A stretch of DNA of 59,520 bases from positions 1-59,520 of the forward strand of contig JAUNBA010000004.1 of assembly GCA_030527325.1 (NCBI GenBank). The letters are read 5' to 3'. Within the stretch, counting starts at the first letter, position 1. Every line of letters begins with the position of its first letter. A program made the position numbers and the translations under genes. The stretch comes from Slackia sp. GTDB lineage: Bacteria; Actinomycetota; Coriobacteriia; Coriobacteriales; Eggerthellaceae. This document shows positions 36,453 through 39,795 of this stretch, piece after piece. The notes under the pieces are model-generated. The model made no database searches, was not told where the DNA came from, and saw nothing but the letters and a program-made list of their open reading frames with translations.

Positions 36453-36634
36453 TCCGTCGCGCGTCGCAAGACCCGATCCGATCCGTCCGGCCTGCGTCGT
36501 TTCGCGCCCGTGTCGCTCGTTTTGCGCGCGGCCCGCGGCGGCGCGGCCGTCTCGGCGCTTGCGACCGTGCCGTACCCTCCGCATCCGCTCTTACGCGCGT
36601 GCGCGTTGGGATGCGATGCATAGATATACCGAAA

Positions 36635-36684
36635 GAAGAAATTTTTAAATTCTTCTTGCATGGATGTGAAATTTTGGGTAAAGT
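36635..36684 (+). promoter_or_regulatory. arg operon promoter with ARG-box-like palindrome
   Basis: An AT-rich imperfect palindrome, GAAGAA...TTCTTC, spans 36635-36655. Directly after it come TTGCAT (36656-36661), a 17-bp spacer and TAAAGT (36679-36684). The palindrome's size and AT core resemble ArgR operators, though it is not an exact consensus match. The preceding 180 bp (36453-36634) show nothing. The transcript would begin near 36691 and carry the leader peptide. Confidence 0.55.
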
Positions 36685-36756
36685 GCCGTCCAACGCTTTA
36701 TTACAACAAAGCGCAATGGCTATCGAAATCGAGCGCAGAGGAAAGGAGAAGCTCAC

Positions 36757-36852
36757 ATGACCGCAACGGCACAGCAGTTCTCTTTCCGACGCCAGGACCG
36801 ACGTACCACGCTGCGATGCACGCGTGTGTTTCTTGCGGTCCATACGAGGTAG
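36757..36852 (+). CDS. Arginine-rich leader peptide for attenuation of argGH
   Basis: A 31-codon open frame with an excellent AAAGGAG SD 8 nt upstream of ATG 36757. The peptide starts MTATAQQFSFRR and continues QDRRTTLRCTR, ending HTR. Seven of 31 residues are arginine, including two Arg-Arg pairs and a final Arg before the TAG stop (36850-36852). It lies between the promoter at 36656 and an intrinsic terminator at 36887, with argG beyond. This matches the classic attenuation layout: a ribosome stalled on Arg codons under arginine shortage would change RNA folding downstream. It does not overlap any real gene. It is not a recognised family. Confidence 0.7.
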   Translation: MTATAQQFSFRRQDRRTTLRCTRVFLAVHTR

Positions 36853-36886
36853 CGCCTCGTAGCATCCATCCTCATAGGACCCACGA

Positions 36887-36914
36887 AGCACCCGGCATCG
36901 CCGGGTGCTTTTTT
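36887..36914 (+). terminator. Attenuator terminator in the argG leader
   Basis: GCACCCGG (36888-36895), loop CATCG, CCGGGTGC (36901-36908), then six Ts. It stands 35 nt after the leader-peptide stop and 167 nt before argG. The 5' arm GAAGCAC (36885-36891) can instead pair with GTGTTTC (36826-36832) inside the peptide coding region, a possible antiterminator. Between them, GGTCC (36837-36841) can pair with GGACC (36877-36881), and TACGAGG (36843-36849) with CCTCGTA (36855-36861) across the stop codon. Pairing choices are inferred. Confidence 0.75.
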
Positions 36915-37080
36915 ATTGCGCGGCTTCGATTCCGGCCGCATGAGGGACGCCCCGCCGCCGCACCGGCGGGGCGCGCGGAATCAGACGATGAAAGCGATGC
37001 GAGGCAGGGCATGTGGCGCGAAGGCGGGCCGCGCGTGCCGCATGCGGAGCACGGAAACGGACGAAGGAGAACAGGTTCCG

Positions 37081-38322
37081 ATGAAAGAGAAAGTTGTTTT
37101 GGCGTATTCCGGCGGTCTGGACACTTCGGTGTGCCTGAAGTGGCTGCAGGTCGAAAAGGGCTTCGACGTCATCGCCGTCTGCGGCAACGTGGGCCAGGAC
37201 GAAGCCGACCTGGCGACTATCAAGCAGAAGGCCCTCGACATGGGCGCCATCGCCTCCATGGCGGTTGATATGCGCGAGGAGTACGCCGACGATTTCCTCA
37301 CGCATGCGCTGGCCGCGAACGCGCTCTACGAGAACGCCTATCCGCTGCTTTCCGCGCTTTCCCGCCCGCTGCTCTCCAAGCACATGGTGGCCATCGCCCA
37401 TGAGTACGGCGCGAAGTACGTGGCCCACGGCTGCACGGGCAAGGGCAACGACCAGGTGCGTTTCGAGACCTCCATCAAGGCGCTCGACCCCTCCATCGAA
37501 ATCGTGGCTCCCGTGCGCGAGTGGGACCTGCATTCGCGCGAGGAGGAGATGGAATGGGCCAAGGCGCACGGCGTGCCGGTTCCCGCTACCAAGAAGTCGC
37601 CGTACTCCATCGACGACAACCTGTGGGGCCGCGCCATCGAGTGCGGCGTGCTGGAGAACCCGTGGTGCGAGCCGCCTGCGGATATCTGGACCCTCACGGT
37701 GGATCCGACGCAGGCCCCCGATGAGCCCGAGTATGTCGAAATCGGCTTCGACCAGGGCGTTCCGTGCTCTTTGAACGGCGAGGACATGAAGTTCGTCGAT
37801 ATCGTCCACGAGCTCAACATCAAGGCGGGCGCGCACGGCTACGGCCGCTTGGATCTGGTGGAAAATCGCGTCGTCGGCGTGAAATCGCGCGAGTGCTACG
37901 AGGTTCCTGGCGCCAAGGTGCTCATCGAGGCGCACAAGGCCCTCGAGACGCTGTGCCTGGACGCCGCCACGCAGCACTACAAGCTGGGCGCCGAGCAGCA
38001 GTGGGCCACGGCGGTCTACCAGGGCCTGTGGTTCTCTCCGCTCAAGATGGCGCTCGATGCCTTCTTCACGGCCACACAGTGCTTCGTCTCCGGCGCGGTC
38101 AAGGTGAAGCTGTACAAGGGTTCGTGCGCGGTGGTCGGCCGCACCAGCCCGTATTCGCTCTACGATTTCGGCCTGGCCAGCTACGGTGCCGAGGACGCCT
38201 TCAACCACGAGGCGGCGAAGGGTTTCAGCGATCTGCACGGCCTGCCCGTTTCCACGTGGTCGGCCAAGCAGGGCCCCGCATCCGGTTTGTCCGCTCAGGC
38301 GGAAGAAGAGGCGGCGGCGTAG
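37081..38322 (+). CDS. argG: Argininosuccinate synthase
   Basis: A 413-residue enzyme. The N-terminal PP-loop is AYSGGLDTSVCLKWL (residues 8-22). Further signatures are AHGCTGKGNDQVRFE, KKSPYSIDDNLWGRAIECG and GRLDLVENRVVGVKSRE. It joins citrulline and aspartate with ATP in arginine synthesis. ATG 37081 has a GAAGGAG SD about 11 nt upstream. It is the first structural gene after the Arg leader peptide and terminator, with argH following 78 bp later, so both are likely controlled by the attenuator and possibly by the ARG-box-like site. Confidence 0.97.
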   Translation: MKEKVVLAYSGGLDTSVCLKWLQVEKGFDVIAVCGNVGQDEADLATIKQKALDMGAIASMAVDMREEYADDFLTHALAANALYENAYPLLSALSRPLLSKHMVAIAHEYGAKYVAHGCTGKGNDQVRFETSIKALDPSIEIVAPVREWDLHSREEEMEWAKAHGVPVPATKKSPYSIDDNLWGRAIECGVLENPWCEPPADIWTLTVDPTQAPDEPEYVEIGFDQGVPCSLNGEDMKFVDIVHELNIKAGAHGYGRLDLVENRVVGVKSRECYEVPGAKVLIEAHKALETLCLDAATQHYKLGAEQQWATAVYQGLWFSPLKMALDAFFTATQCFVSGAVKVKLYKGSCAVVGRTSPYSLYDFGLASYGAEDAFNHEAAKGFSDLHGLPVSTWSAKQGPASGLSAQAEEEAAA

Positions 38323-38400: not shown

Positions 38401-39795
38401 ATGGCATTGTGGTCCGGCAGGTTCGAAGGCGGGGTCGACGAGTTCACCCAGGCGTTCGGCGCTTCCCTCGACGTGGATAAGAACATGTACGCCCAGGATA
38501 TCGCGGGTTCGCGCGCCCATGCCCGCATGCTGGCGGCCCAAGGCGTCATCTCGGACGAAGACGCCCGAGTCATCGACGAGGGGCTGTGCGCGGTCAAGGA
38601 GCGCATGGACGCGGGCACGTTCGTCTTCGACGTGAACGACGAGGACATCCACATGGCCGTCGAGGCCGCGTTGACGGCCGATATCGGCACGGCGGGCGCA
38701 CGCCTGCATACGGGCCGCTCGCGCAACGACCAGGTGGCCACCGATTTGCGCCTGCATGCCAAGGCGCTGCTCGAAGAGCTCATGGAAGGCAACATTGCGC
38801 TGTGCCATGCGCTGCTGTCCGCGGCGCAGGAGCATTTCGGCGTGGTGATGCCCGGCTACACGCACCTGCAGCATGCCCAGCCGGTGCTGTTCAGCCATCA
38901 TATGCTGGCGTATTTCTGGATGTTCGGCCGCGATTTCGAGCGCCTTGCCGCCGCCCATAAGGCGGCCGACGCAAGCCCGTTGGGTTCTGCGGCCTTGGCG
39001 GGCACCACGTATCCCCTCGACCGTTTCATGACGGCGTCCGATCTGGGGTTCTCGCAGGTCATCCCCAACTCGCTCGATGCCGTGTCCGACCGCGACTATC
39101 TGCTCGATCTCGAATACGCCTGCAGCGTGTCCATGATGCACCTGTCGCGTCTGTGTGAGGAGATCATCTTGTGGTCGTCGTCCGAGTTCGGCTTCATCAC
39201 GCTTTCCGACGCGTTTTCCACGGGCAGCTCCATCATGCCGCAGAAGAAGAACCCCGATTTCGCCGAGCTGACGCGCGGCAAGACGGGCCGCGTGGTGGGC
39301 GATTTGGTGGCGTTGCTGGTCACGATGAAATCGCTGCCGCTGGCATATAACAAAGACCTGCAGGAGTGCAAAGAGGGCGCCATCGATGCGGCGAAGACGC
39401 TGATGGATTGCATGACGTGCATGGAGGGCATGATCGGCGGCATGCAGCTGCACGAATCTGCCATGCGCGCGGCGGCCAACGAGGGCTTCATGGCGGCCAC
39501 CGACGTGGCCGACTACCTGGCGAAAAAGGGCATGCCGTTTCGCGAGGCGCACGCCGTGGTAGGCCAGCTCGTGCTGCTGTGCGAGCGCAAGGGCTGCGGT
39601 CTCGAGGACCTTTCGCTGTCCGATTTGCAGTCGGCGAGCAGCCTGTTCGGCGAAGACGTGGCGGGCGCTTTCGATATCGACGCCATCGTGCGCGCCCGTA
39701 CCACCTACGGCGGCACCGGGCACGAGGCCGTGCGCGTGCAGATCGACGAGGCCGCCGGCGCGCTGGCCGCTCACGAGGCGCAGATGCATCATTAG
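38401..39795 (+). CDS. argH: Argininosuccinate lyase
   Basis: A 464-residue fumarase/aspartase-superfamily enzyme. Signatures are LHTGRSRNDQVATDLRLH, GYTHLQHAQPVLFSHH, and the C3 loop STGSSIMPQKKNPDFAELTRGK with its catalytic serine. It splits argininosuccinate to arginine and fumarate. ATG 38401 has a GAAAGG SD. It forms an operon with argG; no other arg genes are present. Confidence 0.97.
   Translation: MALWSGRFEGGVDEFTQAFGASLDVDKNMYAQDIAGSRAHARMLAAQGVISDEDARVIDEGLCAVKERMDAGTFVFDVNDEDIHMAVEAALTADIGTAGARLHTGRSRNDQVATDLRLHAKALLEELMEGNIALCHALLSAAQEHFGVVMPGYTHLQHAQPVLFSHHMLAYFWMFGRDFERLAAAHKAADASPLGSAALAGTTYPLDRFMTASDLGFSQVIPNSLDAVSDRDYLLDLEYACSVSMMHLSRLCEEIILWSSSEFGFITLSDAFSTGSSIMPQKKNPDFAELTRGKTGRVVGDLVALLVTMKSLPLAYNKDLQECKEGAIDAAKTLMDCMTCMEGMIGGMQLHESAMRAAANEGFMAATDVADYLAKKGMPFREAHAVVGQLVLLCERKGCGLEDLSLSDLQSASSLFGEDVAGAFDIDAIVRARTTYGGTGHEAVRVQIDEAAGALAAHEAQMHH

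Follow-up and report, generated by a model that had tools for sequence, protein, structure and literature searches.

The window analysed here, i.e. a stretch of 59,520 nucleotides on contig JAUNBA010000004.1 of a Slackia sp. genome (1,674,815 bases in 27 contigs, 85% complete), carries the arginine biosynthesis genes argG and argH, and argG is preceded by a leader region comprising a short arginine-rich reading frame and an intrinsic terminator. The features of this region are the following:

36633-36657, no strand assigned: candidate operator, an imperfect inverted repeat AAGAAGAAATTTTTAAATTCTTCTT recognised from the sequence; similar repeats are seen by eye in the corresponding position at loci L002-L005
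36656-36684, forward strand: putative promoter TTGCAT-N17-TAAAGT (sequence and comparison by eye)
36742-36748, forward strand: Shine-Dalgarno sequence AAAGGAG of the leader frame
36757-36852, forward strand: leader peptide frame MTATAQQFSFRRQDRRTTLRCTRVFLAVHTR of 31 codons, seven of them for Arg, with the TAG stop at 36850-36852
36787-36804, forward strand: putative regulatory codons CGA CGC CAG GAC CGA CGT (Arg-Arg-Gln-Asp-Arg-Arg), delimited by alignment A1 and a pattern search
36795-36800, forward strand: segment 1 (GGACCG), inside the Arg codons; predicted partner 36836-36841
36817-36841, forward strand: segment 2, predicted 5' arm of an antiterminator (folds and duplex energies)
36844-36860, forward strand: small predicted hairpin ACGAGG/CCTCGT with the stop codon inside, within the loop that separates segment 2 from segment 3
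36877-36896, forward strand: segment 3, predicted 3' arm of the antiterminator, of which 36885-36896 doubles as the 5' arm of the terminator
36885-36914, forward strand: intrinsic terminator with a stem of 12 bp, a loop of 3 nt and a T run (terminator scan and folds)
37081-38322, forward strand: argG, argininosuccinate synthase (NCBIfam TIGR00032, 503.1 bits against a cut-off of 268.2)
38401-39795, forward strand: argH, argininosuccinate lyase (NCBIfam TIGR00838, 593.5 bits against a cut-off of 279.5)

A preceding sequence-only reading of this DNA had described a frame of 31 codons with a strong Shine-Dalgarno sequence and seven Arg codons, which the sequence confirms: the Arg codons are codons 11, 12, 15, 16, 20, 23 and 31, and thus form two Arg-Arg pairs and include, as had also been claimed, the last codon before the stop. 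Judged against 11 reading frames of the window taken as genes, seven Arg codons compare with an expectation of 1.85 (P = 0.002), and three of the seven are CGA as compared to 11 of 265 (4%) in the reference frames (P = 0.002), with both Arg-Arg pairs starting with this rare codon. From the stop of the frame to the start of argG there are 228 bases. The U-tailed terminator that had been placed downstream of the frame is likewise present (hairpin 36885-36911 with 12 pairs in the terminator scan, T run 36909-36914), but it follows the stop codon after 32 nt and not after 35. A further GC-rich inverted repeat, GCCCCGCCG...CGGCGGGGC at 36949-36972, lies between the terminator and argG and has no T run.

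Upstream of the frame that reading had seen a good promoter with an adjoining palindrome. The hexamers TTGCAT-N17-TAAAGT do exist, but the epithet is not borne out, as a sigma-70 scan did not report them and called a single site only, on the opposite strand; by eye, a TTGCA..TAARGT pair is visible in seven of the ten leaders of the genus including that of the window. There is also a palindrome beside the -35 hexamer, but instead of adjoining the hexamer it overlaps its first two bases.

With respect to the distribution of the leader, argG is present in 11 of the 12 genomes of the genus, and at ten of these 11 loci, the window included, it is preceded by a leader encoding RRQxRR. The sole argG locus of the genus without this leader is L010 (genome G105), and genome G107 has neither argG nor the leader motif. 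At L010, inspection by eye reveals a frame, MKSILRCLRCGFCALR..., about 120 bases upstream, which directly follows a promoter-like stretch, has no Shine-Dalgarno sequence and overlaps the start of argG; possibly it represents a leaderless variant. The sequence-only reading had made conservation in relatives its test, and the relatives show the pattern it looked for: Arg codons, Shine-Dalgarno sequence, frame and switch helices are retained. In an alignment of the ten genus leaders (alignment A1), the stretch of Arg codons, the cores of segments 2 and 3 and the terminator are conserved, while the N-terminal codons vary. The best conserved stretch of the frame is the one containing the codons for Arg-Arg-Gln-Asp-Arg-Arg.

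Beyond the genus, a search across the class covered 396 genomes, of which at least 366 have argG, and 40 upstream regions from other families were chosen from its better-scoring part. Among the matches listed, a second family, f2, has the motif at 18 of its 23 loci, which were chosen by hand with near-duplicates included, and our guess is that this family is the Atopobiaceae; among the same matches the pattern was not found in the other 17 of the 40 regions. Genome G012 fell outside the upstream set, its contig starting inside argG, and locus L136 (Slackia piriformis YIT 12062) duplicates L005. Searched across 297 genomes of the order, the motif pattern occurs at 57 places in 56 genomes as compared to three places for a reversed control pattern; of the 53 places that were checked (four of the 57 were not), 48 lie upstream of argG at distances of 144-328 bases. 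The five places not upstream of argG were set aside and lie, by eye, inside stretches with long open frames. By our own rule for U-tailed hairpins, such a hairpin follows in 21 of 28 motif leaders and in 15 of 16 further leaders, the seven motif leaders for which that rule finds none being L143, L144, L147, L152, L154, L174 and L175.

The main evidence for translation of the leader frame is that the frame is kept through changes in its length. In 26 of the 28 motif leaders there is an in-frame start with a Shine-Dalgarno sequence within 90 nt of the motif, and in the remaining two such a sequence lies farther away from an in-frame ATG. The distance from the start to the Arg codons takes nine values, i.e. 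27, 30, 33, 36, 39, 42, 45, 48 and 54 nt. An out-of-frame start with a Shine-Dalgarno sequence was found in one leader only (L151), beside an in-frame one, and all 16 further leaders have an in-frame start and none out of frame.

The conservation of the motif is not confined to the Arg residues, since in the alignment and in the pattern search the Gln codon and the third positions of CGACGCCAG are conserved as strongly as these, and on the sequence evidence this exceeds what the sensing of tRNA alone would need. The stretch might accordingly be read as an RNA element that binds a metabolite or a protein and overlaps a frame by chance, translation being no part of the mechanism; the near-invariance of CGACGCCAG, third codon positions included, is what such an element would lead one to expect. 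However, a start-to-motif distance that shifts in threes while the Shine-Dalgarno sequence is kept does not fit an overlap by chance, the computed folds contain no complex structure besides the switch helices, and no Rfam family reaches the gathering score in the window. We therefore regard this reading as very improbable. The Rfam search, which covered both strands of all 59,520 bases, also returned no T-box, a type of leader that, in its arginine-responsive form, binds the tRNA directly and has no leader frame.

In the computed folds, segments 2 and 3 form a helix of 19 base pairs, or 25 if the outer pairs are counted, and this predicted antiterminator (36817-36841 with 36877-36896) consumes the entire 5' arm of the terminator. 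The sequence-only reading had paired 36885-36891 of the terminator arm with 36826-36832 inside the peptide frame; these bases do pair, but as part of the longer helix of 19 bp and not as a simple antiterminator of 7 bp. When the ribosome-free leader is folded from position 36683, the pairing of segments 1 and 2 has a probability of 1.0 and the terminator one of 0.98; when it is folded from the AUG, the terminator keeps its 0.98 and the 1:2 pairing drops to only 0.23. Stalled states were represented by leaving free only the sequence downstream of the ribosome. If the transcript ends short of the terminator's 3' arm, stalling at Arg 11, 12, 15, 16 or 20 then gives the 2:3 helix a probability of 0.99-1.0, and stalling at Arg 23 one of 0.42. 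For a ribosome that has reached the stop codon, the probability of the terminator is 0.98.

In the finished transcript the balance is a different one: for stalls from Arg 12 to Arg 23 the terminator reaches 0.88-0.98 and the 2:3 helix 0.20-0.48, and only for a stall at Arg 11 does the latter stay at 0.87, with the terminator at 0.20. Masking of the Arg codons, as by a stalled ribosome, thus yields the antiterminator in the fold predicted before the terminator is complete, while the finished transcript mostly returns to the terminator. As the finished transcript mostly favours the terminator, the scheme needs ordered folding, in which the antiterminator forms first and then persists.

The same comparison can be extended to the relatives. 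When the transcript is cut as above, upstream pairing takes up 80% or more of the 5' terminator arm at all ten loci of the genus. The fold energies of the stalled state, computed for 18 loci, do not in every case lie below those of shuffled sequences, with z values of -1.2 to -5.0 except at L140 (+0.5) and L150 (-0.2). The place of the small hairpin at 36844-36860 is taken in several relatives within the genus by hairpins with different stems. The pairing of 36795-36800 with 36836-36841 would complete the classical 1:2 / 2:3 / 3:4 design, but it is the least secure part of the model: in minimum-energy folds from the AUG the 1:2 hairpin appears at L001-L006 and not at L007, L009 and L011, and at L008 segment 2 pairs otherwise.

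That the two arms of the antiterminator are matched to each other is suggested by permutation of the partners between loci, which is restricted to the 21 of 28 leaders followed by a U-tailed hairpin. The native duplexes of segments 2 and 3 have a mean energy of -22.1 kcal/mol at 21 loci, as compared to -17.5 (sd 0.75) with permuted partners, and none of 20,000 permutations matched the native arms, neither in this set nor in a thinned set of 17. For the ten loci of the genus alone 12 of 20,000 permutations were as good, and for the 11 loci of the second family three of 20,000; at the single loci L153, L157 and L159 the native pairing is not clearly better than the permuted one. Changed pairs can be seen by eye, such as GGUCC/GGACC in the window, CAGUCC/GGACUG at L146 and GUCUU/AAGAC at L141. 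At L009 a shift by one base turns the end of the peptide into CVLMHGPIGC and the 2:3 helix is nevertheless retained with 19 bp, which argues for selection on the RNA at this locus.

These results bear on the simplest explanation of the locus, namely a plain terminator behind a frame that is rich in Arg by chance, with argGH under control of ArgR alone at the palindrome near the -35 hexamer. An Arg_repressor domain is encoded in all 12 genomes of the genus, the inverted repeat at 36633-36657 is, from its sequence, a possible ArgR site, and Arg-rich frames with a Shine-Dalgarno sequence arise in about 11% of shuffled regions: they were counted in 58 of 163 upstream regions as compared to 12 of 163 reverse complements and to 190 and 177 of 1630 in two sets of shuffles. 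However, the conservation, the keeping of the frame and the partner-specific pairing rule out a chance origin of the frame, and this explanation retains next to no probability, although an additional action of ArgR would still be compatible with the data.

The variable end of the peptide, in turn, is of importance for a further alternative, according to which the nascent LRRQxRR peptide would arrest the ribosome when arginine, ornithine or citrulline is bound, so that the switch would be driven by high ligand or work in the opposite sense. Arrest peptides of the kind to which this can be likened are SpeFL and the fungal arginine attenuator peptide. The conservation of Gln13 besides the Arg residues would suit such an arrest, and the speF leader frame with its consecutive Arg codons offers a precedent, even though the available text of the respective study argues for codon pausing (PMC6386406). 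However, it is RRQ that is conserved and the C-terminal part of the peptide that varies, as exemplified by the altered end at L009 with its intact 2:3 helix and by the peptides of the second family, which end variously (RRITP, RRITLR, RRISLRRQRV). Together with the use of the rare CGA codon, which suits the sensing of codons, and with the different Arg-run leaders in front of argG in other genera (see below), this makes arrest by the nascent peptide rather unlikely.

We therefore propose, with a probability of roughly 85%, that the leader frame and the competing predicted helices constitute a ribosome-mediated transcription attenuator of argGH that senses charged tRNA-Arg, based on the sequence, its conservation, the keeping of the frame, the computed folds and the partner-specific energies, from which we infer that the ribosome stalls, that transcription terminates and that arginine is what the leader responds to. 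With plentiful arginine, the leading ribosome would reach the stop codon and cover segment 2, so that segment 3 would pair with segment 4 to form the terminator and transcription would end before argG. With scarce arginine, the ribosome would stall on the Arg codons, with their CGA-led pairs, and cover segment 1, and segment 2 would then pair with segment 3 as soon as the latter is made and before segment 4, allowing read-through into argGH. If the leader were not translated at all, the 1:2 pairing would result in termination by default. By nearly every feature that can be read from its sequence the locus is a real and conserved attenuator, the 1:2 hairpin being the weakest of these features.

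In other genera of the Eggerthellaceae, argG is preceded by different leaders with runs of Arg codons, found in groups g2 (9 of 9 loci), g24 (3 of 3), g33 (3 of 3), g9 (2 of 3) and g31 (2 of 2) and at single loci of g3, g15, g20, g34 and g47. Leaders of this second type, which were studied at 23 loci (L016, L020, L022, L031-L033, L053, L054, L060, L069, L083, L088, L014, L026, L117, L023, L028, L030, L107, L015, L017, L050 and L047), often end in Leu-Arg-Arg-Arg-stop (CTG CGA CGA CGT TAA). Frames with Arg runs also precede argG in family f3, e.g. at L163 and L168. The f3 frames at L163, L166 and L168 end in RRQRAISRRR-stop and share the CGACGCCAG of the Slackia type, and no terminator with a T run was seen there by eye. 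As Arg-rich frames are common by chance, single matches in other genera are not trustworthy by themselves, and several of the 58 frames counted above look like noise (e.g. in g39, g44 and g8). A frame ending in ...AIDRLRRR in front of argG in many genera, presumably the C-terminus of ArgR, was not counted as a leader, and long frames open at their upstream end were dropped. In many further genera argG lies behind an apparent argR, and no leader with an Arg run was seen.

Between the stop codon and argG, 22 of the 23 leaders of the second type have no U-tailed hairpin by our rule. At some of them the ribosome-binding site of argG looks sequestered by eye, and translational attenuation in these genera seemed convincing on inspection but failed when partners were swapped: pairing with the anti-Shine-Dalgarno partner was equalled by 3836 of 20,000 swaps for the 23 loci, by 1426 with one locus per group and by 1922 for g2 alone, and pairing between the peptide frame and the downstream sequence by 6880, 2432 and 15760 of 20,000, none of which is significant. 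It is a tentative view, to which we give slightly less than an even chance, that control of argG by an arginine leader is general in the Coriobacteriia with its outputs rebuilt, i.e. a terminator in Slackia and the second family, and translation of argG or Rho in the others, since under this assumption leaders of the second type without a U-tailed hairpin would have to work via the translation of argG or via Rho. If so, the sensor of the amino acid would have remained constant while the machinery driven by it was exchanged.

As to the other arginine genes, argC scores above its cut-off in six of the 12 genus genomes and not in the source genome, which is incomplete, as compared to argG in 11 of 12. 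In all six genomes bearing argC, no frame with a Shine-Dalgarno sequence and at least four Arg codons was found within 500 bases upstream of that gene. Given this restricted occurrence of argC, argGH may mainly serve to make arginine from citrulline.

Ribosome-mediated transcription attenuators are known for the trp, his, leu, ilv, thr and phe operons, while textbooks present the synthesis of arginine as the model of repression by a DNA-binding protein, and to our knowledge arginine is absent from the classical attenuators. An attenuator that is conserved in gut anaerobes and responds to arginine would close this gap, would predict which leader frames sense the charging of tRNA-Arg, and would provide a ready means of studying why ribosome stalling serves as the sensor for some amino acids and repressors do so for others. 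Relatives within the Eggerthellaceae are known for the catabolism of arginine, and the sensing of charged tRNA-Arg at argGH would therefore bear on the balance between making and burning this amino acid. The mechanism as such is known, and what appears to be new is its specificity for arginine, by which we presume the operon to be regulated.

In the open-access literature, a scope that leaves most subscription journals outside, no leader-peptide attenuation of a bacterial arginine biosynthesis operon was found. In the available text of the respective studies, no conserved RNA regulatory structures are given upstream of the arginine operons of Actinobacteria (PMC1262725), and argG does not occur where other uORF and carA motifs are described (PMC8632094); the available main text of PMC2965389 contains neither 'argG' nor 'arginine'. 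Arginine T-box leaders likewise sense the charging of tRNA-Arg and switch expression within the leader, according to the accessible part of PMC1262725. With the attenuators of the trp, his, leu, ilv, thr and phe operons, as described for Actinobacteria in that part of PMC1262725, the argGH leader shares a short frame rich in codons of the pathway, three competing helices and, ahead of the first structural gene, a terminator with a U tail, but the amino acid here is arginine and the operon argGH. Judged from the text available of both studies, the nearest precedents are the leaders of speF (PMC6386406) and of Pseudomonas carA (PMC4997734). The carAB leader of Pseudomonas aeruginosa also encodes a peptide, with possible attenuation, in front of a gene that contributes to the synthesis of arginine as well; however, the possible attenuation is ascribed there to pyrimidines, and arginine acts at the transcriptional level (PMC4997734). 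In the speF leader of Salmonella, orf34 is likewise a short frame in which rare Arg codons directly follow one another, and pausing of the ribosome at low arginine alters the fold of the RNA. Unlike the leader described here, however, it controls ornithine decarboxylase and not the synthesis of arginine, and, as far as the text available extends, its output involves Rho, RNase G and the accessibility of the ribosome-binding site, with no Rho-independent terminator in the leader (PMC6386406).
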